The translations under genes were made by a program, and so were the position numbers. This document shows positions 1 to 20,470 of a stretch of DNA of 23,646 nucleotides, in pieces; the stretch's first letter is position 1, and every line of letters begins with the position of its first letter. The stretch covers positions 1 to 23,646 of the IMG/VR virus record IMGVR_UViG_3300046809_000429; one strand, written 5' to 3'. Under the pieces are notes generated by a model. It did no database searches. It saw only the letters and a list, made by a program, of their open reading frames with translations, and had not been told where the DNA came from. This DNA is from a virus.

Positions 1-1298
1 CCGCTGTGCACATAATCCGTCTTGTCCCCGGGTATCAACCGGTGATTGGGCGCGTTCACGATCGTCGTCCCCGTCAGGCTGCTCACATACACCTGCAGCT
101 GGGCCGCCTTGAAACCCGTCTGGAAACTCGTCTGCCCCGCTCCGTCCGGCTGCATAATCAGCGTCGGCGCCCCGTTCCCGTAAAACCCCGGCGTCAACGC
201 CTGGCGCTCCAGGTAAAACATCCCCAAACTCGCCCCGCTCATGTCCAGCTTGGTCGTCAGGCTCGCCGTCGTGTAAAGCTCCACCTTGTTGCCCGAGATC
301 AGCTTCACAAAATACAGCGTGTTCGGGTTCGGCGGGCTCGTCCCCAGGATGTAGCTCGAGGGAAACGCCACATACAGCACCCGATCCCCGTTCGCCCAGG
401 CCTGCGGCGAGTTGAGCTGGATCTGGCTCGTCCCGATGTCTATCGCCGGCGCCCCGAAATAGTGCCTCTCGTTGCCATGGCGCAGCAGCATCACCCCGTT
501 ATACACCGGGATCAACCTCGCCACGTCCCACACGTCATGTCCGTTGAGGGGGATAGCCTGCGGCGCCTGGCCGCTCATTATCCGCCAGGCCCGGCCGCGC
601 CCCCCGTCCTCGCCCGGCCCGTCCCGCAAATCGTCCGTCACCAGGATCAAGTTATCCGTCAGCGTATCCGGATCCGTAAAGCGCTTGTAAGCCATCGGGT
701 TCTGTCCGGTGGCATACACCTGCGCCGTCACACTCACCCCATTGGTGGTCCCGATGAAATTCAGGCTCGGATCCGCCGCGATGAAATACAGCACCACACC
801 CGCCCCGGGATTGGTCAGCGTCTGCGCCCCGTTAAGAATGAAATGGGTGGGCCCGGCCTCGTGCGCCCCGGTCACCAGCGCATACCCCTTACCCACGGTC
901 AAACCCGTGAAAATATAGTGGGGTTCACCCAAAGAATCCGGCGCATACACCTGCGCCGCCGGGATCAGCCCGCGCCAGGTCTTATACGGTAGCCGTCCCC
1001 AGCTTTGCAGCTCGATCGAGTAGCGCGGCCACACCCGGCCATCTTCGAACCGCTTATTGATCGCCCCGGCCGCCATCCCCGGCTCCAGCTCGTGCGGCGG
1101 CCTCTGCGTATCCACCCCGCGCCACGAGGCATCCCCATCACTCTGCGCCAGTGCCTGAGATTGCCATGCCATACCTAGTGAGTTACCGCAAAGAACGCAA
1201 AGAACGCAAAGCCGAACAGCGGCCAGCATGGAAGCAACTGGCATTTCTCTGCGTTCTCTGCGTTCTCTGCGTTCTTTGCGGTTAAATTCATACATCAT
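1..1298 (-). CDS. Large virion protein, C-terminus beyond the window edge
   Basis: The frame is open for 432 codons from position 1298 to the left edge, so the C-terminus is missing. The body is beta-rich and Gly/Thr/Asn-rich without enzyme motifs. A segment near residues 60-92 (GVDTQRPPHELEPGM, then AINKRFEDGRVWPR) resembles the start of phage tail-tube or stopper proteins as I remember them. The ATG at 1298 overlaps the upstream stop by 4 nt (ATGA), which favours this start. In that case residues 5-18 (RKERRER-type) and 30-38 (LCVLCVLCG) are encoded by a forward and an inverted repeat copy and form a signal-peptide-like N-terminus. The alternative starts are ATG at 1244, 1229 and 1172. The last would drop all repeat-coded residues and begin MAWQSQALAQ. 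The gene is certain, the start is uncertain, and the function is inferred from position next to the connector-like gene. Confidence 0.75.
   Translation of the reverse strand, partial: MMYEFNRKERRERRERREMPVASMLAAVRLCVLCVLCGNSLGMAWQSQALAQSDGDASWRGVDTQRPPHELEPGMAAGAINKRFEDGRVWPRYSIELQSWGRLPYKTWRGLIPAAQVYAPDSLGEPHYIFTGLTVGKGYALVTGAHEAGPTHFILNGAQTLTNPGAGVVLYFIAADPSLNFIGTTNGVSVTAQVYATGQNPMAYKRFTDPDTLTDNLILVTDDLRDGPGEDGGRGRAWRIMSGQAPQAIPLNGHDVWDVARLIPVYNGVMLLRHGNERHYFGAPAIDIGTSQIQLNSPQAWANGDRVLYVAFPSSYILGTSPPNPNTLYFVKLISGNKVELYTTASLTTKLDMSGASLGMFYLERQALTPGFYGNGAPTLIMQPDGAGQTSFQTGFKAAQLQVYVSSLTGTTIVNAPNHRLIPGDKTDYVHS
1183..1211 (+). repeat. 9-bp-period repeat, inverted copy
   Basis: It reads ACCGCAAAGAACGCAAAG on the plus strand, opposite to the genes. 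It pairs with the copy at 1246-1289 as an inverted repeat with a spacer of about 34 bases. On the coding strand it encodes LCVLCVLCG of the large virion protein. Confidence 0.9.
1246..1289 (-). repeat. 9-bp-period repeat, long copy
   Basis: It contains four tandem units after the TTTAACCGC head, in the gene direction. It lies between the stop at 1295 and the ATG at 1244, and encodes a basic RKERRERRERRE stretch if translation starts at 1298. Confidence 0.92.
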
Positions 1299-1924: not shown

Positions 1925-2028
1925 TCATTGCTGAGCCGCGAAAGACTCATGTTCATTTCTTCTTCCTCAGATGAGGCGGCAAAAATGAACAAGCCCGTCT
2001 CTGCGTTCTTTGCGGTTAAATTCTTCAT
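1921..2028 (-). CDS. 35-aa reading frame bridging two genes
   Basis: A 36-codon frame starts at the ATG at 2028, overlapping the stop of the zinc-ribbon gene by 4 nt, and ends at a TGA that overlaps the start of the 209-aa gene by 4 nt. Residues 2-8 (KNLTAKN) come from a forward 9-bp-period repeat. The middle is a short hydrophobic GLFIFAAS followed by SSEEEE, and SLSRLS near the end comes from a partial inverted repeat. The ATGA overlap at both ends suggests it is at least translated through, so that coupling is maintained. It may have no function as a peptide. Confidence 0.35.
   Translation of the reverse strand: MKNLTAKNAETGLFIFAASSEEEEMNMSLSRLSNE
1933..1947 (+). repeat. Partial inverted copy of the 9-bp-period repeat
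   Basis: GAGCCGCGAAAGACT on the plus strand matches the head of the repeat (AGCCGCGAAAGAACGC variant). It faces the forward copy at 1997-2023. Confidence 0.6.
1997..2023 (-). repeat. 9-bp-period repeat
   Basis: A single-unit copy with the TTTAACCGCAAAGAACGC head in the gene direction. It encodes NLTAKNAE in the 35-aa frame. Confidence 0.88.
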
Positions 2029-2639
2029 TTCGGCAAAGGTATCGGTATCGCCACCACCGGGTTCAAATACACCTCCCGCGTCCAGAAAATCTCCCGCCCG
2101 CAACCCGGCCTGGTGCACCGCACCCGCATCCGATGCTCCTCGACCAGGCCACCGCCCATCGTCCGGCCGCCGCTCACCCGGTCAAACACCGCCCCGCTCA
2201 CAAAGCTCGTCCGGCATTCCGGGCATGTCACCTGCCACAAGTTCGTCGAGGGCATCCCCGGCAAATCCGGCGGCAAGTCCACCCCCAAGCTGCGCGCCGC
2301 GATCCGCATCGGTGAATTAGCCGGAACTATTGTATTCGTCCAGGTCTTCGTCGTCGCCGGATCGGGCTTCTCCGTCGTGTTCGTCCCGTCCGTCGTCACA
2401 ATGGTCCGTTGCGACACCGCCAGCCCCGTAATCGTCGCCGCCTCCGCCGCTTGCTGCTGCTGCAAACTGGCAATCTTGAGCAGGATCCCCGTCGTCAACT
2501 CCGGCGAATCCTTAAACGTGGCCAGCTTCCTCTGCTCCTCGCGAATGGTTTGCCCCGGAACCTCTTGCCGCCAAAGAACGCAAACAGCGCAGAGCAGTAT
2601 GACTGTTTTGCGTTCTCTGCGTTCTTTGCGGTTACTCAT
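2025..2639 (-). CDS. Zinc-ribbon protein with repeat-built N-terminal signal or anchor (204 aa)
   Basis: The ATG at 2639 overlaps the preceding stop by 4 nt. Residues 1-11 (MSNRKERRERK) are encoded by a forward 9-bp-period repeat. Residues 13-23 (VILLCAVCVLW) are encoded by an inverted copy. Together they form a basic region and a hydrophobic core like a signal peptide or type II anchor. A glutamine-rich helical segment lies at 55-70. A zinc-ribbon-like arrangement of Cys139, Cys142, Cys175 and Cys180 sits in the C-terminal half, with RCTRPGCGREIFW around the second pair. A zinc site is unusual in an exported protein, so the N-terminus may be an anchor or simply tolerated. Function is unknown; the surroundings suggest a virion or lysis-region accessory. 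Confidence 0.68.
   Translation of the reverse strand: MSNRKERRERKTVILLCAVCVLWRQEVPGQTIREEQRKLATFKDSPELTTGILLKIASLQQQQAAEAATITGLAVSQRTIVTTDGTNTTEKPDPATTKTWTNTIVPANSPMRIAARSLGVDLPPDLPGMPSTNLWQVTCPECRTSFVSGAVFDRVSGGRTMGGGLVEEHRMRVRCTRPGCGREIFWTREVYLNPVVAIPIPLPK
2565..2597 (+). repeat. 9-bp-period repeat, inverted copy inside a gene
   Basis: GCCGCCAAAGAACGC and following bases face the copy at 2606-2635 across an 8-base spacer. The two form a near-perfect arm pair of about 30 bases each. Confidence 0.88.
2606..2635 (-). repeat. 9-bp-period repeat at a gene start
   Basis: It starts four bases after the ATG of the zinc-ribbon gene, which reads ATGAGT then AACCGCAAAGAACGC. It encodes NRKERRERK. 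Confidence 0.92.
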
Positions 2640-2929
2640 AGTTTCCTCGCAAACATCTTCATCTTCGGGTCGTCCAGCGGGATCCCGGTCACAAACGCCC
2701 GCCCAAAGTCCGGCGGCTGCATCCCCTTGGCGGCGATCTTCACCACGTGCTCGAGGTCCTTGGTCAAAAAGTCGGCTGCCTTCGCTTCCGAGAGGCAGCC
2801 CTCGCACATCTGCAGGTTGATCACGATCTGGATCGGCTCATGTTCCGGGATCGGACAATCCTTGGCCGGCACATTGAGCATCAGCGCCACCACCGCATCC
2901 CGCTCGCACCCTGTCCTCGAGCATTTCAT
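2636..2929 (-). CDS. Small cysteine-rich protein (97 aa)
   Basis: Cys3 and Cys8 (MKCSRTGCER) and Cys42 and Cys45 (MCEGC), with Cys25 and His30 between them, suggest a small metal-binding fold. The rest is ordinary mixed sequence without a signal. The ATG at 2929 is preceded by CAGGACTG, giving a Shine-Dalgarno AGGA at short spacing, right after the CACGAAT-type repeat. The stop overlaps the next start as ATGA, so expression of the downstream zinc-ribbon gene is probably coupled. Two neighbouring Cys-rich proteins may work together, but this is inference. Confidence 0.7.
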   Translation of the reverse strand: MKCSRTGCERDAVVALMLNVPAKDCPIPEHEPIQIVINLQMCEGCLSEAKAADFLTKDLEHVVKIAAKGMQPPDFGRAFVTGIPLDDPKMKMFARKL

Positions 2930-2936
2930 CAGTCCT

Positions 2937-2963
2937 GATTCGTGCTATTCGTGCAATTCGTGG
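2937..2963 (-). repeat. CACGAAT-type 9-bp-period repeat
   Basis: Three degenerate units of the form CACGAATTG / CACGAATAG / CACGAATCA lie in the gap between two small genes. I remember this motif type from Verrucomicrobia and Planctomycetes intergenic regions. Confidence 0.8.
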
Positions 2964-2981
2964 GCCAGGTCACCCTCAGCC

Positions 2982-3239
2982 TCAGCTTAGTTGCTTCGCA
3001 TTCACCCGCACGCACGTCGCCGGCCGCCCGGTGAATTCCGAGTCACCCAAATCCACCGTCACCCACTGCGGCGCGTGCGGATGGATCGAGGCCACCGTCA
3101 CCTTGAGCGTCACCTCCTCCCCCACCGCGAGCACCCGCGGCGCCGGCGGCGGCCAGGTCTGCTGCCCTTGAAACTGGCGATCCTTGCCGGGCTCATCCGC
3201 TTCCTTCATCAAATTTGTTTCCGTGTTCTTCGTTGCCAT
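2982..3239 (-). CDS. Hypothetical protein (85 aa)
   Basis: I do not recognise this protein. The N-terminal 30 residues are polar and probably disordered (MATKNTETNLMKEADEPGKD). The remainder looks like a small beta domain (EEVTLKVTVASIHPHAPQWVTVDLGDSEFTGR). The ATG at 3239 follows AAAGGCAAGTT, in which the last bases of a 9-bp-period repeat merge with the AAAGG ribosome binding site. It sits in a run of small genes between the lysis-like group and the connector gene. Confidence 0.65.
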   Translation of the reverse strand: MATKNTETNLMKEADEPGKDRQFQGQQTWPPPAPRVLAVGEEVTLKVTVASIHPHAPQWVTVDLGDSEFTGRPATCVRVNAKQLS

Positions 3240-3244
3240 AACTT

Positions 3245-3272
3245 GCCTTTGCGTTCTTTGCGGTTAAAAAAA
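3245..3272 (-). repeat. 9-bp-period repeat in an intergenic gap
   Basis: TTTAACCGCAAAGAACGCAAAGG fills the 34-base gap between the 91-aa and 85-aa genes and supplies the Shine-Dalgarno of the latter. Confidence 0.9.
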
Positions 3273-3273
3273 A

Positions 3274-3549
3274 TCAACCCGTCTTGGTCATCCGATACGC
3301 CACCTGCGGATCCGTGTACTCCACGTTATCTATCGAGTAGCGGGAAGATCCCGGATGCGTGTGGCCCAGTGTTCCAGCAGGCACCCAGGGCTTGCCGGGA
3401 CCTGGGCTGCTTTCCAGCGAGTAAGTGCCCGGATCGGGCATCTCCCAAAACACGTTAAGGGCATACTCCGTTCCGAAGTACCCTGTCCACTCAACTTGCG
3501 ATGGAATGATTGATCCGATCGGTAATGGTGGGGGCACTGCGATTCCCAT
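3274..3549 (-). CDS. Hypothetical protein (91 aa)
   Basis: I do not recognise this protein. It is Pro/Gly/Tyr-rich with a proline-rich start (MGIAVPPPLPIGSIIP), a GYFGTEYALNVFWEMPDPG segment and YSLESSPGPG, suggesting a small beta-sandwich similar to fibronectin-type folds. No signal or membrane segment is seen. The ATG at 3549 follows AAAGGCAAATTATT, a good ribosome binding site directly downstream of a repeat copy. A small virion decoration protein is possible but unproven. Confidence 0.65.
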   Translation of the reverse strand: MGIAVPPPLPIGSIIPSQVEWTGYFGTEYALNVFWEMPDPGTYSLESSPGPGKPWVPAGTLGHTHPGSSRYSIDNVEYTDPQVAYRMTKTG

Positions 3550-3563
3550 AATAATTTGCCTTT

Positions 3564-3598
3564 CTCTCTCTGCGTTCTCTGCGTTCTTTGCGGTTAGA
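3564..3598 (-). repeat. 9-bp-period repeat in an intergenic gap
   Basis: The CTAACCGC head is followed by two units and a GAGAGAG tail, filling the gap between the lipoprotein gene and the 91-aa gene. Confidence 0.9.
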
Positions 3599-3607
3599 TT
3601 GCTTCCC

Positions 3608-3922
3608 TCACGGCTTCGCCGCCTTCACTCCTCCCTGCACCGCGCCGGACACCACCGCCTCTACCAGCGCGTTCAGGTTCGTCGTCGTGCTCACCTGGTT
3701 TAACCCGCCGATCGTCGTTCCCGCCGGCCATTGGCCGTTGGTCGTCGTTGTCGTCGCGTTGCGGAATTTGGTCAGCTCCGATTTTGAATCCATGAACGTC
3801 ACCACCCGCACGAAAGAGGTTCGCTGCCCCTGCTCATTGTAAGTCGTCGAGTGCAGCACCGCGCAGCCGGCCAGTCCCGCGATCACCATCAGTCCCATCA
3901 GTCCCATCAGTCTCAGTTTCAT
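3608..3922 (-). CDS. Small lipoprotein, possible outer-membrane spanin
   Basis: The N-terminus has a basic start, a hydrophobic stretch and a lipobox LAGC with Cys20, the expected lipidation site. The hydrophobic stretch (LMGLMGLM) is encoded by a tandem 9-bp repeat. The mature part is Thr/Asn-rich and about 85 residues long, with a C-terminal VEAVVSGAVQGGVKAA segment. The start shares one base with the upstream stop (TAATG). It follows a holin-like gene and a membrane/coiled-coil gene, as outer-membrane spanin subunits often do, which is the basis for the suggestion. The length is within the range of such lipoproteins, but no proline-rich segment typical of Rz1 is present. It could be another phage lipoprotein, such as a superinfection-exclusion factor. 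Confidence 0.7.
   Translation of the reverse strand: MKLRLMGLMGLMVIAGLAGCAVLHSTTYNEQGQRTSFVRVVTFMDSKSELTKFRNATTTTTNGQWPAGTTIGGLNQVSTTTNLNALVEAVVSGAVQGGVKAAKP
3887..3914 (-). repeat. GGGACTGAT-type tandem repeat
   Basis: Three 9-base units of ATCAGTCCC on the plus strand encode the MGLMGLM core of the lipoprotein signal peptide. I recall the same unit type as an intergenic repeat in Verrucomicrobia and Planctomycetes. Confidence 0.75.
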
Positions 3923-4179
3923 TATTTCGTGTCCTTCTTAGTCATTTCCGTATCCCCGGTGCTCTCAGGCGGCACCGGGCTCTGTTTCAGGTAGGCGAAC
4001 ATCCCCACCAGGCCGCCGGTCAGGCACATCACCCCCAGCTGCTTGAGGTCCAGCCGCTGCACATTCACCCCCACCGCGGCCGCCACCGCGATCCCCACAA
4101 AGGCGGATCCGCTCGAGGCCGCCCCGGTGATCACCGCCGCCGCCAGCGCCCTCAGCCACTGTTCAGTTTTGACTCTCAT
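3922..4179 (-). CDS. Holin-like small membrane protein (85 aa)
   Basis: Two hydrophobic segments can be seen: residues about 10-38 (ALAAAVITGAASSGSAFVG and on) and about 47-64 (QLGVMCLTGGLVGMFAYL). A charged C-terminal tail ends in MTKKDTK. Size and topology suit a two-segment holin. It overlaps the lipoprotein gene by one base and follows a single-span coiled-coil protein, so the trio resembles a lysis cassette. The ATG at 4179 stands six bases after a repeat copy that ends CGCAAAG, with no other ribosome binding site. No endolysin is present in the window to confirm the role. Confidence 0.6.
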   Translation of the reverse strand: MRVKTEQWLRALAAAVITGAASSGSAFVGIAVAAAVGVNVQRLDLKQLGVMCLTGGLVGMFAYLKQSPVPPESTGDTEMTKKDTK

Positions 4180-4182
4180 TAT

Positions 4183-4218
4183 CTTTGCGTTCTCTGCGTT
4201 CTTTCGCGGCTAAAATTC
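4183..4218 (-). repeat. 9-bp-period repeat upstream of the holin-like gene
   Basis: A variant head TTTTAGCCGCGAAAGAACGC plus two units ends as CAAAGAT immediately before the ATG at 4179. It fills the whole intergenic gap. Confidence 0.92.
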
Positions 4219-4221
4219 AAT

Positions 4222-4530
4222 TCACTTCCTCATCTTCTGCAGCTCCAGCTCCATCGCCGTCGTCCGGAGTTTCAGCTCCGCCAGGTCAATATCCTGCTTG
4301 GCCGAATGGTCCCGGAACCCCTGCAGCTCAACTTGCACCTCCACCCGCGGCATCATCTCCGCGTGCAACGCCTCCACGGTCTTGTTCAGCGCCGCCAGGC
4401 TCACTGCGGACGCCGCCTGCGTTCCCTCGATCACGCTCAGCGTATGGGTCGCCAGGAACCACGCCACCGCGCCCAGTCCGCCAATGATCAATAGCAGAAT
4501 CGTGTTGGTCTTGGATTGCTTGGTGTCCAT
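4222..4530 (-). CDS. Single-span membrane protein with coiled coil (102 aa)
   Basis: A short basic N-terminus is followed by a membrane segment at about 10-32 (NTILLLIIGGLGAVAWFLA). A long helical, coiled-coil-prone region rich in Glu, Leu and Lys then runs to the end (DLAELKLRTTAMELELQKM). This is the architecture of an inner-membrane spanin or a holin-accessory protein. It sits directly before the holin-like and lipoprotein genes. The ATG at 4530 has only a weak upstream purine tract. The assignment to lysis is inferred from order and topology, not from a recognised motif. Confidence 0.65.
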   Translation of the reverse strand: MDTKQSKTNTILLLIIGGLGAVAWFLATHTLSVIEGTQAASAVSLAALNKTVEALHAEMMPRVEVQVELQGFRDHSAKQDIDLAELKLRTTAMELELQKMRK

Positions 4531-4550
4531 GGTGTGGTGGAGCGCTGTGA

Positions 4551-4598
4551 TTAGGCCAGGCCGACGCAGAGCAACAGGAGGGTGAGGAGTTTGGTCAT
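4551..4598 (-). CDS. Possible 15-aa hydrophobic peptide or signal-peptide remnant
   Basis: An ATG six bases after the stop of the PKD-domain gene opens MTKLLTLLLLCVGLA and then TAA. It looks like a signal peptide without a protein. No good ribosome binding site is seen. It may be a relic of a deleted gene, a leader peptide or chance; the 74-base gap holds nothing else I recognise. Confidence 0.2.
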   Translation of the reverse strand: MTKLLTLLLLCVGLA

Positions 4599-4604
4599 AA
4601 GTTT

Positions 4605-5699
4605 TTATTGGTAAAGACTTCCGTCGAACTTGATTGCAAGGCTGTCCCAGAACGCCACTGTGTTTCCCCCGTCGCTGCTCGAAGGGATGCCGAGTTGAAA
4701 TAGCGCGACACCTCCAGCGATGCTGTCATTGCTTGAGTAGGTGCTGCCGACTAGATTGCCGGACATATCATAAAAGTTTATATAGCCACCATCCCCACTG
4801 ACCCATTTCCCAACAACTCGGTAATTGGTGTTTCGGGAGATAGTCACATTTGATCCAAACACGCATGGATTAGGAGAGGGGCAGGTTTCAGTTCTCAATG
4901 CGGGCAATCCTGAATGATAGTTTGGAAACGAGCAATAGACGCTCGCGTTGGTCGTGGACTCCATGACGCCATGATCGAAGAAGTTCCCGTTTGCCTCACC
5001 GAAAGACATGATACACTGGAAGGACACAGTTGGGTAATTGGTGGCCCAATTTAGCACTCCATACTGCTCGAAAGCGCCATTGAAGAAGTAAGCCATCCCG
5101 ACTCCGTTTGCCCCGTCATGTGCGGTACCGTCCACCTTGACTGGAGCAGGTAAGGCGGCGTTTACATTGGTGAAAAACATTGCTGTGGAAGTCGGAAGAT
5201 TGGTGGCCGTTTGACCTCCGAGTAATGTCCATGTCCCTTTGAAACTGGTGCTGATGTAAGACGAGGCTGCGAGCAGGTTTGTGGTTACTGCCTGTCCGCT
5301 TGTTCCACCGTGAAAGTCAACGAAGATGTCCGCCAGATAGTTGACAACGATGTTTGTCGTTGTGCTCGAACTTCCTCCCGCGTTCTGCGCGGTAAACGTC
5401 ACAGTCGTTAAACCCGATGCAAAACCGTGAGTCGGGTTCTGACTGGTGCTGGTGTTGCCGTCTCCGAAGTTCCAGAACCACGACGTTGGCGTTCCAGTCG
5501 AGGCATCAGTGAACGTCACGGAAAGCGTTGGATCACCTGCGGTCGTGCTGGCATTGAAGGCAGCAACCGGGGGCGCAATGAAAACTCCGTTACCACTAAG
5601 AACGGCCTTGCCGGTAATACTCGCTTGACCGGAGATTGTCCCCGTCACAGCCGCCCCGAGCGTCTGAGCAAGGCACAGCAATAGCGCAAGAGTCCTCAT
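4605..5699 (-). CDS. PKD-domain secreted or virion protein (364 aa)
   Basis: Residues 1-17 (MRTLALLLCLAQTLGAA) form a signal peptide. A PKD-like beta-sandwich spans about 44-120, with the characteristic SWFWNFGDGNTSTSQNPTH stretch. The remainder (about 125-364) resembles a concanavalin/LamG-type beta sandwich, with VDFHGG near its start, VGKWVSGDGGYINFYD and AFWDSLAIKFDG near the end, and two pairs of cysteines in the middle. Such domains bind sugars or proteins at cell surfaces. The start overlaps the tail-spike stop by 4 nt (ATGA), so the two are translationally coupled and may be a receptor-binding pair. The base composition is visibly more AT-rich than in the head genes. A signal peptide on a virion protein is odd; export from the infected cell is the alternative. 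Confidence 0.75.
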   Translation of the reverse strand: MRTLALLLCLAQTLGAAVTGTISGQASITGKAVLSGNGVFIAPPVAAFNASTTAGDPTLSVTFTDASTGTPTSWFWNFGDGNTSTSQNPTHGFASGLTTVTFTAQNAGGSSSTTTNIVVNYLADIFVDFHGGTSGQAVTTNLLAASSYISTSFKGTWTLLGGQTATNLPTSTAMFFTNVNAALPAPVKVDGTAHDGANGVGMAYFFNGAFEQYGVLNWATNYPTVSFQCIMSFGEANGNFFDHGVMESTTNASVYCSFPNYHSGLPALRTETCPSPNPCVFGSNVTISRNTNYRVVGKWVSGDGGYINFYDMSGNLVGSTYSSNDSIAGGVALFQLGIPSSSDGGNTVAFWDSLAIKFDGSLYQ

Positions 5700-8600
5700 T
5701 CAAGTATGGCGATGACGTTTTGAACCTTGAACTCGCACGATGCAGACGCACTCTGCCATTGCCAATACACGACAAAGTTTTGAGCGGAAGTGGTGTCTAT
5801 GGCCGTAGATGCCCCCCAGATAGGATTCATGAATACCGTCGAATTAGGAAACCCCGCACCAATCAACGGAGATGTTCCACCGCTGGCAAACAAAATGTTC
5901 CCAACCATTGATTGCGAATTAACGGTTCCTGTGTTTTGCAATATGAACTCAAACGAGAATCCCTGCCGTTGGGTTCTGGCCGGGAATAGTAAATTCTGAG
6001 TGTTTACAGCCCCGGTGTGATAGTTTGTAGTGCCACCGAAAGTAACCGCCAAGACAGCCCCAGTTGATGAGCCGGAGTTTTGCAAAAAGTCTCCCGCGAC
6101 ATAAATATGGACTGCCCTGTTAGTCCCCATAGACGCCGCAGGAATTGGGACCACGACCAAGTTGCTCAATGCGCTTGACGATGTATCGTTGCTGACATTG
6201 TAATTGCGATAGATCACTACAGGCACGTTCCCATTTGTCCCACCAAAACCAAATTGAGCGGATAGTTTTCCGGTAACGAACAGGTCAGCCTGATTCGTCA
6301 CGATACCATTCTGAGGCGCAAGAACCAAAGGACCAGTGCTGCTTGAGAATGTCGCATTTCCGCTGGTCGTAATCGCCACCGAGTTGCTGTTTATTGCGAC
6401 GTTGTTTCCATTGGCGCTGACCATTAATTCATCTTTAACAAACTCCACCCCATTATTAGTCAAAGGCCCAGTAATCGTTATCGCTCTGGTGTCGTTATTG
6501 GTTAACGCATTCGGATCAGTCGGTCCTTGTGGACCCGTTGCCCCTGTCAACGTTACAAAATACCCTGTCCCGAATGTAAAATCACTCGTCGCACCTGTTC
6601 CATCAGACGAATTAGTAAAGTAAAACTTCGCCCCTGCTTTAAGTATTCCCTCTAGTGGCACTACAATCGTCTGTTGTGTGGTCACAGAGTTTGACACAAC
6701 AGAGAGAGTAGTGAAAGTAGAACCACCAGACTGATCAGCCATTATCGCCATAACGCCTGAACCAGTGGTGGCAGGGCCAATCAATACTATGGACGATAAT
6801 GCAAGTATCGGGGCTGACCCCACCGTATAAACTTGATTGATGTTCCAGTTGGTCTGCGTGATCGTCGGCGCCCCGCCGCCGCCGCTTGTGGTTTGCCCGT
6901 TAGTGGAGAGTGTGTTTCCAGTCAGTAATAACCCGCTCCCCACCGTGATGCTGTTGAGCGCCTTGTTGGCGTCCGAGCCCACCAGCGTCGAGGCCGTCAA
7001 AGAGCCGTTCGTCATCCGGCCCGTCGTGGAAATGATGTTGGCGAACAACGGAAAATTCGCCGTCGCGTTCGTCGCCCACAAACCGTCCGTGCCGGAGAAG
7101 GCGTTGCCGCTCGCCATCACACCGCCCAGGCCCGCCCCCAGGATCACCGCCCCCGGCCCCAGCCCAAACGCGTTCGAGACTGTCCCCGCCCCGCCCCCGC
7201 CCGTGCTCGTGATCCCGATATTCGCCTGCCCGTTCACCACCGCCCCCGTCACCACGCTCGAGCCGTTGCCCAGTATGTTCAGGTTGGAGATCACCGTTCC
7301 CCCGGCCGCCACCGAGACGCCATTGGTCAGCACATTCACGATCGCGTTGCTCGCCGAACCACTCCCTCCACCCCCTGTACTTGTAAAACCAATTTCCGCC
7401 TGCCCATTCACAACCGCACCGGTGATTGCGATCCCCCCATTCCCGATGAAGTCCAGGTTACTAACCACGTCAGACCCTAAACTTACAGTATTCGTAAAAA
7501 TCCTAGTAACTGCGCCTACGATGTTAGACGCAAGAAGGACTTTCACCTGGATAGAAGTAAAGAAGTTGGTTCCAGAAAAAGTGTTTGATCCAGAAAGGTT
7601 CAAGCCATTTGTCCAATGCGCTAACCCTACCGCATCACTTACTAGAACACTGTCCAACGCAGGTCCGCCGCCTTTGATTGTAGCCGTGCCATTGACGGCG
7701 AAATTGTTCGAGGCGTTGAGGTTTCCCCAAATGCTCAACCCAAGAATGCTGTTTGAGACGATGGTGAATGGCCCGGTCGTCGTGGTGCTTGTTTGGGGGC
7801 TGAATGTAAACCACGGCGTGGTCCCGCTGTCATTGATAATCGCATCTCCATGATCTGCTTCTTGGAATCCGCCTTGCGAATGGTTCACGGCGCAATGGCC
7901 GCCCAAACTATAGTTAACCACCTTGTAGTTCCCTCCAAAGTAAAAGTCATTTGCCACCGTGATTGATCCACCCACATTGATCACCGACGCGCCACACTTC
8001 AGAAAGCTGTTGTTTTCAATGGTGAGGTCAGACGAATCGAATGTCTCGTAAACAATGGCCGGCCCTAAGCCCATGAAACTCGCCACATCCAGGCTCCCCG
8101 CGTAATCCGCGTTCGTCCAGAGCGTGGTATAGGTGTAAGCCGAATTGGTGAAGAACGATCCTATGCTGCCGAAATTGTTCCCGCTGATTATGCCTCGATT
8201 TCCTCCATGGGCAATCGCACAAGCCAACCCAAAAAAAGTGTTCCCGGTAAACTCCGACCACACGGACGAGCTGGGCTCTAGCCACACTCCCACTACCCCG
8301 GGCTGCACCGATTGCGTCAATTCATAGTTGTAGGTGTAACCGCCATTGGCATGCGCCGATTGATTGGTCAACCCAAAGTTCCAGGCGAATGTGTTGTTCC
8401 TGAAACGCACGTCCTGGTACGCCCCTATCTTGAAGATCATATTTGTCGTGTTCGGGATCATCAGCCACGAGATGTTGTCCACCTCCAACCGCAAACCATT
8501 GAACAAGGTGCTTCCGATATATTCTGTCGTGATGACGAAGTTCGATCCGCCTGGACCGTTGTAAATAACTTGCGGCAAGCCCTCGCCTCTGATCTTTAGG

Positions 8601-9172
8601 TTAAACGGCCTGTTGGTGTAAGACGGAATGATGATCTGCCCTGTGCACACAAACTGGCCCGGCCCTTCAAGCACAATCGTCCCGCCGCCCGGAATCAAAA
8701 ACTTGCTCGCCGCAGCTGAGGATGGCGCCAGCGGCATGTCGTTGATCGCCTCCTGGATCCCTGCCGAAACCGTCCCCGTCGTCACCAGCTTGCCCTTCGG
8801 CCCGATCACTGTCCCGTTGGTGAACACCCGGTACACGGCGCTGATGTTCGTCAGATTCCCGGCGTCCCCCACAAAGTTGGTCGAGGTGATTTGGCCTCCA
8901 ACAAAAGTGGGAAAATAATTGCTGCCGACAAAGATGGAGTTGCTGAACGTGCCGCCGGTAAAGGTATTGGTCCCGATAAACGTCACGTTGCTGAACGTGC
9001 CGCCGTTGATGTTGCTGTTAATGGTGAAGAAGTAGAAATTGCTGCCCGCCCCGCCCCCAGGCGAAAACACCGCCGGTTGCTGGGCGCGCGCCTCTTGCCG
9101 CGAAAGGACGCAAAGAGCGCACAGCACCAGCACCAGCATCAGCACCGGTTTGAGTCGAATTATTGTTTTCAT
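5696..9172 (-). CDS. Tail-spike-like beta-helix protein with signal peptide (1158 aa)
   Basis: Residues 1-30 give a convincing signal peptide: basic MKTIIRLK, hydrophobic LMLVLVLCALCVL and an ARAQ cleavage region; CALCVL is encoded by an inverted 9-bp-period repeat. Residues about 45-110 carry short Gly-Thr-Phe-Ser-Asn repeats. Residues about 135-480 look like a pectate-lyase-type right-handed beta helix (IQEAIND, GGGTIVLEGPG, IRGEG, then many Asn-rich turns). Residues 571-606 and 629-664 are a tandem duplication with a 58-residue period (VVNGQA core, GGGG linker). A collagen-like TGATGPQGP lies at 877-885, followed by a beta-rich C-terminal domain. The family commonly binds or cleaves host polysaccharide. 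I begin at the ATG at 9172, five bases after the previous stop. An upstream in-frame extension to 9418 has no domain and overlaps another gene. The C-terminal third is AT-richer. Confidence 0.8.
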   Translation of the reverse strand: MKTIIRLKPVLMLVLVLCALCVLSRQEARAQQPAVFSPGGGAGSNFYFFTINSNINGGTFSNVTFIGTNTFTGGTFSNSIFVGSNYFPTFVGGQITSTNFVGDAGNLTNISAVYRVFTNGTVIGPKGKLVTTGTVSAGIQEAINDMPLAPSSAAASKFLIPGGGTIVLEGPGQFVCTGQIIIPSYTNRPFNLKIRGEGLPQVIYNGPGGSNFVITTEYIGSTLFNGLRLEVDNISWLMIPNTTNMIFKIGAYQDVRFRNNTFAWNFGLTNQSAHANGGYTYNYELTQSVQPGVVGVWLEPSSSVWSEFTGNTFFGLACAIAHGGNRGIISGNNFGSIGSFFTNSAYTYTTLWTNADYAGSLDVASFMGLGPAIVYETFDSSDLTIENNSFLKCGASVINVGGSITVANDFYFGGNYKVVNYSLGGHCAVNHSQGGFQEADHGDAIINDSGTTPWFTFSPQTSTTTTGPFTIVSNSILGLSIWGNLNASNNFAVNGTATIKGGGPALDSVLVSDAVGLAHWTNGLNLSGSNTFSGTNFFTSIQVKVLLASNIVGAVTRIFTNTVSLGSDVVSNLDFIGNGGIAITGAVVNGQAEIGFTSTGGGGSGSASNAIVNVLTNGVSVAAGGTVISNLNILGNGSSVVTGAVVNGQANIGITSTGGGGAGTVSNAFGLGPGAVILGAGLGGVMASGNAFSGTDGLWATNATANFPLFANIISTTGRMTNGSLTASTLVGSDANKALNSITVGSGLLLTGNTLSTNGQTTSGGGGAPTITQTNWNINQVYTVGSAPILALSSIVLIGPATTGSGVMAIMADQSGGSTFTTLSVVSNSVTTQQTIVVPLEGILKAGAKFYFTNSSDGTGATSDFTFGTGYFVTLTGATGPQGPTDPNALTNNDTRAITITGPLTNNGVEFVKDELMVSANGNNVAINSNSVAITTSGNATFSSSTGPLVLAPQNGIVTNQADLFVTGKLSAQFGFGGTNGNVPVVIYRNYNVSNDTSSSALSNLVVVPIPAASMGTNRAVHIYVAGDFLQNSGSSTGAVLAVTFGGTTNYHTGAVNTQNLLFPARTQRQGFSFEFILQNTGTVNSQSMVGNILFASGGTSPLIGAGFPNSTVFMNPIWGASTAIDTTSAQNFVVYWQWQSASASCEFKVQNVIAILE
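9095..9124 (+). repeat. 9-bp-period repeat, inverted copy inside the tail-spike signal peptide
   Basis: GCCGCGAAAGGACGCAAAG on the plus strand is the repeat in reverse of the gene direction, encoding the CALCVLSR part. The flank CCTCTTGCCG is shared with the inverted copy at 2565. Confidence 0.8.
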
Positions 9173-13240: not shown

Positions 13241-13290
13241 AAAATTTCAAATCACAAATTTTCAATGCTCAATGCTCAATGCTCAATGCC
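13241..13290 (-). repeat. ATTGAGC 7-bp-period repeat with AAATTTGTGATTTG tail
   Basis: Four ATTGAGC units followed by GAAAATTTGTGATTTGAAA occupy the gap between two genes and contain the last codons and TGA stop of the glycosyltransferase-like gene. Confidence 0.88.
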
Positions 13291-14375
13291 TTCGGCACCA
13301 GCAACCCGTTCAGCACCTGCCACCGGATCCCGTTCACCCGCTCGATCATCAAATTGTCCTCGATATACGCCCGGCTCAGCAGGTAACGCGGATGCCGGTG
13401 GCCCTTCTCCCAACTCTGATGCGCCATGCCCAGGCACTCCCGCAGGATCTGTCCGAATTGTTCCGGCCCGCGGTAGGTCATCACCCCCGGCAAATTCCAC
13501 TCCGGCCAATCCGGCGCGATCACCGCCGCCCCCGCGCACGTCGCCTCGATCCACGCCAGGTTGCTCTTGCACCGGTTGAATGGATTGTCCTGCAGCGGCA
13601 CAATGTGCACGTAGGGCGCGAACAGCGAGAGCATCATGGGAAAACTCACCGGCCCGCTGGGCGGGCTCTCCTCCAGGTGCTTCACACGCTCGATCACCCG
13701 GTAAGGTGTCCCGCCGGAAAAATGCCAGCGCCAATCCTTAAATCCCGGGTCATGCGAAATTTTCGCGATCTCCTCCAGCACCGTCCCCACGTCCTCGTCA
13801 TGCGTCGCGCTGCCCCGCCAGCTCACCACCTTTTGCACCGGCAACTCATCGTAAAATTTCGAGACGCACGCATTGGGCACCACGTAAACCTTCTTCTCCT
13901 TGATCTCCCCGCGCAGGTTGCACCCGCGCATCCACGCCCTCACCCGGTTGGCCAGCTCCTCCGTCGCCACCGTGATCGCGTCCGCGTAAAACGCCAGCTG
14001 TCCCAGCATGCGCGGCAGCTCCGTGAAATTCGCGTACTGCTCGAAATGCGGGTTGCTGCGCGGGATGCAGGTCACGTCATCGTCCCACTCGATCCACACC
14101 TTCACCCCCATCTGCTTGGCGATCTTCACAAACGTCAGGTGATTCGGGTGGCAGGGCCTCTGCAAAAACACCGCGTGACAATCCGAGAGAAAATCCCAGT
14201 TGAGCTTCCACCCCTTGCCGTCATCGGTCGGCTCGGCCCGCTTGAGCGTCAGCCTCGGGTCTTCCCGCGCCATCCGCCCCAGCGGCCCGTACGCGCGATG
14301 CCACGAGGTCCCGTCCATCGGATGCGGCACAGAACAAGCCAGCCGCACATGGCTCAATAAAGGGTCCAGCAACAT
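13269..14375 (-). CDS. Glycosyltransferase-like protein, GT4/GT-B type (368 aa)
   Basis: The fold pattern is two Rossmann-like halves. The N-terminal half has HAVFLQRPCHPNHL and VKVWIEWDDD at about 67-100. A linker follows with VYVVPNACV at 163-171. The C-terminal half carries VVSWRGSATHDEDV and the family-type segment PFNRCKSNLAWIEATCAGAAV at 265-285, with Glu277 in the position of the nucleotide-sugar-binding glutamate. The expected role is transfer of a sugar from an activated donor, perhaps to capsid, spike or host envelope glycans. The ATG at 14375 abuts the TGA of the 65-aa gene with AGGAAAC upstream. The last residues (ALSIEH) and stop come from a repeat. The acceptor is unknown. Confidence 0.72.
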   Translation of the reverse strand: MLLDPLLSHVRLACSVPHPMDGTSWHRAYGPLGRMAREDPRLTLKRAEPTDDGKGWKLNWDFLSDCHAVFLQRPCHPNHLTFVKIAKQMGVKVWIEWDDDVTCIPRSNPHFEQYANFTELPRMLGQLAFYADAITVATEELANRVRAWMRGCNLRGEIKEKKVYVVPNACVSKFYDELPVQKVVSWRGSATHDEDVGTVLEEIAKISHDPGFKDWRWHFSGGTPYRVIERVKHLEESPPSGPVSFPMMLSLFAPYVHIVPLQDNPFNRCKSNLAWIEATCAGAAVIAPDWPEWNLPGVMTYRGPEQFGQILRECLGMAHQSWEKGHRHPRYLLSRAYIEDNLMIERVNGIRWQVLNGLLVPKALSIEH

Positions 14376-16945: not shown

Positions 16946-17159
16946 AAGCCCTCCCCTCGTCGCGCAGTCGTTTGTGGTACGCCTTCATCTCCGCCTTATT
17001 GCGCCATGGCTTGCGCTCCTGGCTCAGCACACTCCCGTTGCGCTGCACCAGGTACGCGTCCCCGCTTTGAAAGTTGAAGGTCTTGCCCACCGCCAGATCT
17101 CCGGTCGTCCTCGCGGTCAGCTTGTGCATCACCTGCACGATTCGTCTTTGCTTGCTCAC
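16929..17159 (-). CDS. Hypothetical basic protein (76 aa)
   Basis: The GTG at 17159 overlaps the ACP stop as GTGA, so I prefer it to a longer upstream form. The chain is basic with MHKLTARTTGDLAVGKTFNF, a YLVQRNGSVLSQERKPW segment and a final helix NKAEMKAYHKRLRDEG. This suggests a small nucleic-acid-binding or structural protein, but I do not recognise it. It is translated with its acyl-carrier neighbour. Confidence 0.58.
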   Translation of the reverse strand: MSKQRRIVQVMHKLTARTTGDLAVGKTFNFQSGDAYLVQRNGSVLSQERKPWRNKAEMKAYHKRLRDEGRACERHH

Positions 17160-17422
17160 AAATTCGCCTTCTGTTTCGCCACCAGCAGCCACACCACCCT
17201 GGCCAGGTCGCCCACCGTCTCGACGTCCTCGGTCAGTTCCTCCGGTATGTCTATCCCGTGCTCCTCCTCCAGCTCCATCAGCAGCTCCAGAACATCCATC
17301 GAGTCCAGCCCCAGGTCCTCCTCCAGCCGCAACGCTTGCGGATCCACGCTCCCCACCAGCGCCTTATGCCCATCCTCCCGCAATCGCTGGAGCACGCTCT
17401 CCAAAATCAGGTCTTCACTCAT
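17156..17422 (-). CDS. Acyl carrier protein (88 aa)
   Basis: Residues 31-43 ([13 protein letters not shown]) contain the DS-M/L motif of acyl carrier proteins with Ser41 as the site for the 4'-phosphopantetheine arm. The four-helix outline, acidic helix II ([16 protein letters not shown]) and C-terminal helix fit the family, with a normal length. Such proteins carry acyl chains for fatty-acid or related synthesis, or partner with acyltransferases. The start overlaps the stop of the Gp37/Gp68 gene by 8 bases and the next gene starts at its stop (GTGA). No acyltransferase, ketosynthase or phosphopantetheinyl transferase is seen in the window, so it must use host enzymes. A carrier protein between terminase and portal genes is unusual. 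Confidence 0.85.
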
Positions 17423-18636: not shown

Positions 18637-18674
18637 TTTCAAATCACAAATTTTCAATTCTCAATTCCCAATCC
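18637..18674 (-). repeat. TTGAGAATTGAAAATTTGTG repeat
   Basis: TTGAGAATTGAAAATTTG and following bases fill the gap between the terminase stop and the helix-turn-helix start. It shares the AAAATTTGTGATTTG part with 13241-13290. Confidence 0.85.
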
Positions 18675-20470
18675 TACCATCCTCTCCCACCAACAACCTC
18701 CGGTATCTCCGGGTCCACATAGTAAAGCGGTTGCCCAAACAAATAGCGCAGCGTGTCCACTGGGTCTTTCCACGGGCTGGTCCGCGCCTGGTCCAGGCTC
18801 CAGTTGAGCATGCACCGGATCAGGTTCTGGCAGCGCTCGCTGATGTAGAGGCGCGGCTCGTTCTCGATCGTCACCGGCTTGTCCGGGTCATACGCCAGCA
18901 AATCGTTCACGTTCTCCAGGTCCAGGTTAATCGTCTGCCGAACCATCGCCGGCCGCCAATCCATCGGCGCCCCGTGCTCGCCCGTGTTTTGCTGCTGGAA
19001 CAAATTGAACAGGCTCGTGTTCCCTTCGGCCGATGCCGCCTGCGTCGCGAACCCACGCGGATCCCCGTAGGCCGCGATCGCCTCCTGGCCGTGCTCGATC
19101 TCCCGCTGTCGGATATGTTGCTTGTACCACACCGTCCCCAGGCCCGCGTAGATCCTCTGCCCGTCCCCTATCTCCCCATCGCTGCCCACCCATTCCCCCT
19201 CCTCGTAACGCGGCGATTCATCGAACACAAACGCCCGGCCCTGCTCGTCCACCCGCGCCCACAAGATGAACATGCTCCGCGCCGTCGCCGGATCCCCGCC
19301 CCGATAATCCGTTCCCTCCGTTGGGATCTTCCCGGGCTTGATCACGTGCACCGCCGGACTGAACAACGGAAAGGCGGTACCGGAAAGTTTGTCCGCCCAC
19401 CCAAAGAGCCGCGTGCGCACCTTCCCCTTGTTGTCGTTGCGCGCCGCGTCGAACACCGCCGGCGCCCCCTTCTGCTGCTTGCTCTTGGGCAGAAAAACAT
19501 TCCAGTGCGTCCAAAGAAAAATCACGGACTGCCGCGCATTGAGCGGCTGCATCCGGTATGGCATGTGCCCCTTCGGACATCCCTTCACCTGCACCTCTCC
19601 CGGGTCAAGGACGGGTATCTTCAACTCCGGATCCGCGAATCCGTCCACCGCCTTTGCGTTCTCTGCGTTCTCTGCGGTTAAATTCTTAGTCCGCCAACGC
19701 CAATTCATCGGCAAGCTCTTGACCAATTTGGCTCCCGTCAACACCTCGTTGCACACCGCGTCAAACCCATGGATCGCCGTGAACGTCACGAAAATTTTCC
19801 CCGCCCGCTTATGCACGCGATAGCGCAGTGTGGCCAGCAGTTTGAGCGGCGCCGGTTCATCCAGCCACACCAGGTCATACTCCGGCCCCTCGAAACTGTT
19901 CGGATCATCCAGGTATTGGCGCACCGTCTTGAACCAGCATTGCGAGCGGTTTGGCAAAACAAACGTCGCCTCCGTGAACCCGCCCGCCGGCGTGTACTTC
20001 ACCTTGGCCACTCGCTCCCGCCGCTGGGGACTCGTCAGCTCATTACGCGATTTGAGAGCGCGAGGCAGGTATTTGTAAACCGCCGGCTGCTGCAGCTGCT
20101 TGCTCGAATTCTCGTTTGTCGCCACGCACAGCACCCGCTTGTTGGAGTTGTAACACAGCGTCTCGGCCACGATCTTCCCGCCGATCTCCGTCTTGCCCGG
20201 CCCGTTGCCGCCCAGCGCATACAACTCGTCCCGGTTCTCCAGGATCGTCCGCACGTCCTTCCAAAAGGGCAGCTCGAACCCGTAGCGCAGCGGGTCCTCG
20301 TCCGACTCCCGAATCATCCGCTCCCGCGCATCCCAGTACTCGAGCACGGCCGCATCCCCGCCCGGTTGCGCCAGCCACGCATCCAGCTCCGACTCCGATA
20401 GCGCCGGCACCAACTCATCCGCCACCGGATGCGCCGTCCACTTTAATTGCGCTGTTGGCGCCGTCGTCAT
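18674..20470 (-). CDS. terL: Large terminase subunit with an in-frame repeat insert (598 aa)
   Basis: The ATPase half carries Walker A GGNGPGKT at 87-94 and a Walker B VWLDE at 201-205. The nuclease half has the acidic residues Asp393 (GGDPA), Asp470 (YGDPRG) and Asp569/Asp572 (WKDPVDTLRY), giving an RNase-H-type site. The enzyme packages DNA and cuts concatemers at the portal. Residues 263-273 (NLTAENAENAK) are encoded by a 9-bp-period repeat lying between the two domains, in frame and without damage to the motifs. The start ATG at 20470 overlaps the TGA of the 80-aa gene by 4 nt; a longer frame to 20656 is just an upstream overlap. The length is otherwise normal. Confidence 0.93.
   Translation of the reverse strand: MTTAPTAQLKWTAHPVADELVPALSESELDAWLAQPGGDAAVLEYWDARERMIRESDEDPLRYGFELPFWKDVRTILENRDELYALGGNGPGKTEIGGKIVAETLCYNSNKRVLCVATNENSSKQLQQPAVYKYLPRALKSRNELTSPQRRERVAKVKYTPAGGFTEATFVLPNRSQCWFKTVRQYLDDPNSFEGPEYDLVWLDEPAPLKLLATLRYRVHKRAGKIFVTFTAIHGFDAVCNEVLTGAKLVKSLPMNWRWRTKNLTAENAENAKAVDGFADPELKIPVLDPGEVQVKGCPKGHMPYRMQPLNARQSVIFLWTHWNVFLPKSKQQKGAPAVFDAARNDNKGKVRTRLFGWADKLSGTAFPLFSPAVHVIKPGKIPTEGTDYRGGDPATARSMFILWARVDEQGRAFVFDESPRYEEGEWVGSDGEIGDGQRIYAGLGTVWYKQHIRQREIEHGQEAIAAYGDPRGFATQAASAEGNTSLFNLFQQQNTGEHGAPMDWRPAMVRQTINLDLENVNDLLAYDPDKPVTIENEPRLYISERCQNLIRCMLNWSLDQARTSPWKDPVDTLRYLFGQPLYYVDPEIPEVVGGRGW
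19652..19684 (-). repeat. terL: 9-bp-period repeat inserted in the terminase gene
   Basis: AATTTAACCGC and two AGAGAACGC units plus AAAG, 33 bases and in frame. Confidence 0.93.

Follow-up and report, generated by a model that had tools for sequence, protein, structure and literature searches.

How does a phage gene come to begin with a basic stretch and a hydrophobic core that are copies of one short DNA repeat in opposite orientations, and could such an N-terminus direct the protein to the Sec machinery? The gene that raises this question lies in a window of 23,646 nt (the whole stretch of DNA that we analysed), which matches positions 180-23825 of the 42.7-kb record IMGVR_UViG_3300046837_000232 at 100% identity, on its reverse strand. 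Genes for an SU10-like major capsid protein, a terminase and a DnaB helicase are present according to PHROGs and Pfam, and by its gene content the window is a portion of a tailed-phage genome. The gene studied sits in the tail/lysis section, with gene 2929->2636 before it and gene 1924->1295 after it. The window also carries a PP-binding domain (acyl-carrier-like) gene and a glycosyltransferase-like gene (17156-17422 and 13269-14375), and a set of small membrane/lipoprotein-like genes (4222-4530, 3922-4179 and 3608-3922) that could be a lysis module, holin/spanin-like by appearance only.

Anatomy of the N-terminus

The features at the start of the gene are as follows.

2636 to 2929, minus strand: preceding gene, whose TGA is shared with the ATG of the gene studied
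2025 to 2639, minus strand: gene studied, 204 aa, translation MSNRKERRERKTVILLCAVCVLWRQEVPGQT..., its ATG on the previous stop (ATGA)
2603 to 2636, minus strand: F arm (forward repeat), AGTAACCGCAAAGAACGCAGAGAACGCAAAACAG, coding for the charged n-region NRKERRERK
2571 to 2596, minus strand: I arm (inverted repeat), TGCTCTGCGCTGTTTGCGTTCTTTGG, coding for the hydrophobic core LLCAVCVLW
2550 to 2570, minus strand: c-region RQEVPGQ, with a weak candidate cleavage site VPG/Q

Here and below, cleavage sites marked with a slash were placed by eye. The repeat is the 9-nt unit GCARAGAAC (the 9-nt repeat of the genome is AGTAACCGCAAAGAACGCAGAGAACGCAAA). Counted as CGCARAGAACGCARA with at most one mismatch, it has 20 matches in the window, where 0.01 are expected by chance, and 24 in the 42.7-kb record. 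Codons 1 to about 11 of the gene are a forward (F) copy of this repeat and codons 13-23 an inverted (I) copy. The two form an inverted pair, 2572-2598 with 2602-2628, of 27 nt and 81% complementarity. A stricter aligner scores the pair at 29, and 100 shuffles reach 20 at most, so that a chance origin of the repeat and of the inverted pair is ruled out. Together with the translation, this bears out the proposal of an earlier note that one repeat read in two directions provides both the n-region and the h-region. The same note had assigned the copies to residues 1-11 and the core with an 8-base spacer between them. The opposite orientation stands; the h-region, however, is T12-W23, residue 12 (T) belongs to the spacer, the I copy is degenerate (CTCTGCGCTGTTTGCGTTCTTTGGCGGC), and the separation is 3-8 bases depending on how the arms are drawn. 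The ATGA overlap, with AGGA in front of the ATG, agrees with the claim that the start is placed for translation.

Codon statistics support the reading frame overall (+0.12 per codon for the whole gene) and divide it in two: residues 31-204 score +0.20 and residues 1-30 score -0.34. The first 30 codons thus look non-coding and the remainder coding, as expected if spacer DNA turned coding. Relatives of the gene in viral contigs come only from the same phage, none is found among named phages, and PHROGs and Pfam give no match. This lack of homologues counts against export, as do cysteine pairs in the C-terminal part (CPEC...CTRPGC), which hint at a zinc ribbon, usually a cytoplasmic fold. Also on the negative side, the AlphaFold model is of low confidence and too poor for a structure search.

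Likeness to a Sec signal

The N-terminus resembles Sec signal peptides and signal anchors in having a basic n-region, an uncharged hydrophobic core and a polar c-region. The net charge ahead of the core is +4 by our scoring rule, the positive charge expected of a Sec signal, and the best 10-residue window of the core is uncharged with a mean hydropathy of 3.53, where Sec signals have cores of about 7-15 residues. Unlike in usual Sec signals, the n-region is unusually rich in Arg and Glu together, and the cleavage motif is weak, which counts against export: the AxA rule (small residues at -3 and -1) fails here, VPG/Q being the best candidate, whereas the rule holds in the homologues of gene A and in the 1158-aa gene, both described below. 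The core has only about 11-12 residues (T12-W23) before R24, short of the about 15-20 residues of a signal anchor. From these features the N-terminus may be a cleavable signal peptide or a short signal anchor.

In the reading that we propose, palindromes made of an F array and, after it, the inverted copy I occupy the spacers between genes. In the gene studied the start codon overlaps the stop of the gene before it and precedes the element, and the entire F-I unit would be translated as the N-terminus. The purine-rich F would give charged or polar residues (KER, AKN, QRT) and the pyrimidine-rich I would be hydrophobic in two of its three frames (VLC, FFA), so that the F-to-I order would place an n-region before an h-region and provide the protein with a functional Sec signal, either a signal peptide or a short anchor. 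The steps that we infer are translation from this ATG, engagement of the Sec machinery and origin by spacer capture. To the reading that a captured spacer hairpin has the role of a signal peptide or of a short anchor targeting the product to Sec we assign a probability of about 0.6, favouring it because of the anatomy, the non-coding look of the first 30 codons, the recurrence with unrelated repeat families, a signal cassette that two non-homologous genes of a relative have in common, the F-to-I order of near pairs and the intrinsic likeness of F-I elements to signals.

Repeat families and other repeat-built signals in this phage

A solitary F array of the 9-nt repeat, one of about ten copies in the window, lies between genes just beyond the end of the gene studied.

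1994 to 2018, minus strand: solitary F array between genes
near 3244, 3561, 4179, 9547, 9994, 16756, 19648 and 21156: further solitary F arrays of the same 9-nt repeat

A second family has the 7-nt unit AAGTATG. Forward arrays of both families occupy spacers and gene starts or form in-frame parts of a large polyprotein, and the clear inverted arrays are all in N-termini in this phage. Many forward arrays stop 0-19 nt ahead of a start codon, where they resemble a ribosome-binding sequence, a role that we infer from their position. In the large polyprotein, the in-frame forward arrays appear as charged low-complexity linkers (IMGVR_UViG_3300046837_000232 at 31572-31609 and 33771-33800; at 7306, 7723 and 10508 in the phage called relative 2 below). 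Many other 7- and 9-nt spacer families of the same phage (CACGAATAA, GCAAATG, GCATTGA, ATTGAGA and GACTGATGG) are mostly gene-oriented (window 3244-4210, 13245-13306 and 18637-18698; locus L133).

Repeats also enter the signal-like N-termini of other genes.

1 to 1298, minus strand, running on past the window: nozzle-like gene, N-terminus MMYEFNRKERRERRERRE...VRLCVLCVLCG...QALAQS
1242 to 1284, minus strand: F arm upstream of or in the nozzle gene
1181 to 1214, minus strand: I arm of the nozzle gene, reading RLCVLCVLCGN
5696 to 9172, minus strand: 1158-aa gene, signal MKTIIRLKPVLMLVLVLCALCVLSRQEARA/QQP, containing an inverted copy (LCALCVLSRQEARA/QQ)
9102 to 9127, minus strand: I array within the hydrophobic core of the 1158-aa gene's signal, with no forward partner found
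3882 to 3917, minus strand: (GACTGATGG)n array, read as LMGLMGLM within the signal of gene 3922->3608, which is lipoprotein-like

The 1158-aa gene shares with the gene studied a stretch of 36 nt at 86% identity, TGCTsTGCGCTsTTTGCGTyCTTTsGCGGCAAGAGG, which in the former is part of the signal. Translation of the nozzle gene may begin at the upstream start or further on, at the ATG that is M42 in the 887-aa reading; relative 2 is out of frame there, and relatives 3 and 4 show signal-like starts. Gene A of this phage, which lies beyond the window, starts MKYEMNRHGRWAGLWLILHTSYFILAGTAHA/QLTATVTPGYQF and is built from the AAGTATG family, with an inverted pair scoring 50 against a shuffle maximum of 24. 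A test for coincidence between inverted-repeat starts and signal-like starts is not relied on: since inverted arrays are hydrophobic when translated, it is partly circular.

Signals of related phages

The nozzle gene and gene A are common to four phages. In relative 2 (IMGVR_UViG_3300046505_000105), gene A begins MKTQNKSRGQQKWGLQFRLSKFLLSTFACAFCFLLSTLALRA/DLTAVVTPGYQF and uses a third family, AAAGCAG, with an inverted-pair score of 35 against 24. The signals of this phage and of relative 2 both end in AxA, and a conserved mature start follows. A 94-nt cassette of gene A in relative 2 recurs at 37424 in a gene that is not homologous, while gene 42541 and the nozzle-gene leader have another cassette in common; as a sequence match, the 94-nt cassette shows copying only. 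F-I cassettes in a relative phage also stand upstream of the starts of likely cytoplasmic genes, untranslated, which counts against export. The gene A signal of relative 3 (IMGVR_UViG_3300041809_002760) is a plain one, MRTKILRAAVAMVCLWAATCGA/TLTAIVSPGYQL, a fourth repeat being present solely upstream of the start; relative 4 (IMGVR_UViG_3300050821_010368) has ...RRRVVVAFALLSAIISQPSTSFA/QLTATVSPGYTF. Neither has a significant inverted pair at gene A, though both have a signal peptide. A GTTGATG pair in gene A of relative 4 was rejected, its score of 18 being below the null maximum of 21.

Two distant relatives, C75C1 (a named phage) and a prophage of bacterial genome G386, have no signal at the start of the nozzle protein; the apparent gene A counterpart of the prophage, a weak match with 27% over the N-terminus, lacks one as well. 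Because of these distant relatives, the signals seem to have been gained within this phage lineage. The DNA source of the gene A signal varies among phages. Homologous phage genes with signals from different repeats are in this respect a natural experiment.

The same comparison bears on the strongest alternative, in which repeats are inserted or copied at random and survive only where the peptide is harmless, so that the export signal pre-dates the repeat. Inverted copies would then persist in older signal cores, and forward ones in spacers and disordered linkers. The gene A signals of relatives 3 and 4 and the in-frame forward arrays of the large polyprotein are as this account predicts, and at gene A the repeats may have rebuilt or overwritten a pre-existing signal, since relatives without a significant inverted pair also carry one. 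In the gene studied, however, F supplies the n-region and I the core, leaving little of any older signal, and the distant relatives of the nozzle protein and of gene A lack a signal. We regard this alternative as plausible, if short of an even chance; its likelihood overlaps that of Sec targeting because it concerns the origin of the peptide and not its use.

F-I hairpins in bacteria and the coding logic

Returning to capture of a spacer hairpin, F-I pairs of the 9-nt repeat occur in bacteria of many phyla. In two genomes inspected closely they are in spacers, where F follows one gene and I precedes its neighbour. Spacers are often flanked F...I, about 75-170 nt apart and in any gene orientation (loci L177-L196 in genomes G008 and G006). 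The order is F to I in all 26 of the near pairs listed from six genomes (a manual count), and by 125 to 1 against the reverse among pattern-selected loci, a count biased by the selection.

We called a frame signal-like if a net charge of at least +2 is followed by a 10-residue uncharged hydrophobic stretch, and applied this rule to both strands of 124 F-I elements. A signal-like frame is found in 38% of the elements, in 1.3% of dinucleotide shuffles and in 0% when the halves are swapped. Arrays of GCAAAGAAC translate as AKN/QRT/KER and their complement as VLC/FFA/SLR; AAAGCAG arrays behave alike, with KAESRKQ forward and LLSAFCF inverted. F-I hairpins can thus read as signals because the purine-rich F is charged or polar, the pyrimidine-rich I is hydrophobic, and F nearly always precedes I. 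The suggestion of the earlier note that such repeats are a route to export signals gains ground from this intrinsic signal-likeness and from the recurrence of other repeat families at gene starts, which go part of the way towards it. The analysis suggests that such DNA hairpins could supply export signals ready-made. The broader view that F-I palindromes are pre-formed signal peptides, set by the genetic code and a fixed polarity, and in this phage lineage repeatedly captured or copied as portable cassettes onto different genes, with families swapping at one gene, we put forward tentatively.

Capture in this form is uncommon in cells, going by a scan for ATG-F-I in 384 genomes of one bacterial class, which gives 4 matches; the readable ones stop, by eye, within or just after the F arm. 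ATG-plus-LCVLC patterns in bacterial genomes are mostly stops or spacers. In one gene (476 aa in genome G205, at least 259 aa in G145, where the end of the locus cuts it; loci L151 and L163) an F-I hairpin that is free of stops and in frame immediately precedes the gene's own ordinary signal peptide, an arrangement that is possibly the cellular state one step before capture.

F-I hairpins form ordinary spacer DNA in bacteria, where they are not translated, and in a relative phage they precede some starts. Both observations would also fit an element retained as an RNA hairpin at the start of the gene (for translation control, coupling or mRNA stability), its peptide tolerated and unused for export. 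A strong hairpin (-40.4 kcal/mol, z = -3.4) is predicted at the beginning of the gene studied, right behind its start codon. Yet the gene A signal and its AxA are conserved in four phages, two of which (relatives 3 and 4) do not keep the hairpin, and inverted arrays within coding sequence occur only where a hydrophobic core is wanted, which makes this explanation unlikely. Less likely still is a true start downstream of an untranslated extension: the repeat is stop-free in most frames, which makes in-frame reading cheap, and for the nozzle gene a later ATG fits the start region of relatives, but in the gene studied no in-frame ATG, GTG or TTG follows the first ATG before or just after the core, so that a start past residue 25 would need a codon deep in the coding part, and the AGGA and the coding signature from about codon 31 speak against it.

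Known repeat systems

Rickettsia palindromic elements (RPE) occur in intergenic DNA as well as within genes, where they are in frame, and the phage repeats are like them in being palindromic, intergenic and in frame. RPE are not known to serve as signal peptides. The gene studied shows two features of such repeat fusions, also those of RU type: its repeat is dispersed in spacers, and a palindromic element is read in frame.

RU-2 of Yersinia led to the proposal that intergenic repeats can turn into signal peptides (Delihas 2007, PMC2759123). The enterobacterial RU-1, RU-2 and RU-3 small mobile repeats are likewise intergenic repeats joined in frame to ORFs, but they are MITE-like units of 103-168 nt (PMC2759123), whereas the phage units are arrays of 7-9 nt; here, moreover, the arms of a palindrome give the n- and h-region, families replace one another at one gene, and the host is a phage. 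Borg tandem repeats, intergenic and in ORFs of extrachromosomal elements, add protein segments (PMC9879509), as do the in-frame F arrays of the large phage polyprotein. The Borg repeats all run in direct orientation and produce disordered segments (PMC9879509), whereas the inverted phage copies give hydrophobic cores and the phage repeats are common in bacteria too. In the open-licence papers searched we found neither the 9-nt repeat sequence nor the orientation logic nor the swapping of repeat families at one gene. Repeat-derived signal peptides are thus a known idea; the palindrome logic and the family swapping look new. The origin of new export signals has mostly been argued from random sequences, and spacer hairpins, present in many phyla, would be a concrete and abundant DNA source.

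That tail-module proteins of these phages appear to carry signal peptides at all is also flagged by this analysis. Signal-like N-termini are seen on several tail-module proteins of the four phages: the nozzle, the fibre-like gene A product, a spike-like protein and a PKD protein.

1 to 1298, 4605 to 5699 and 5696 to 9172 of the window: tail-module signal-like loci
1996 to 6014 of locus L176: tail-module signal-like locus
1977 to 3837 of locus L209: tail-module signal-like locus
25926 to 28559 of phage 4 (G586), reverse strand: tail-module signal-like locus
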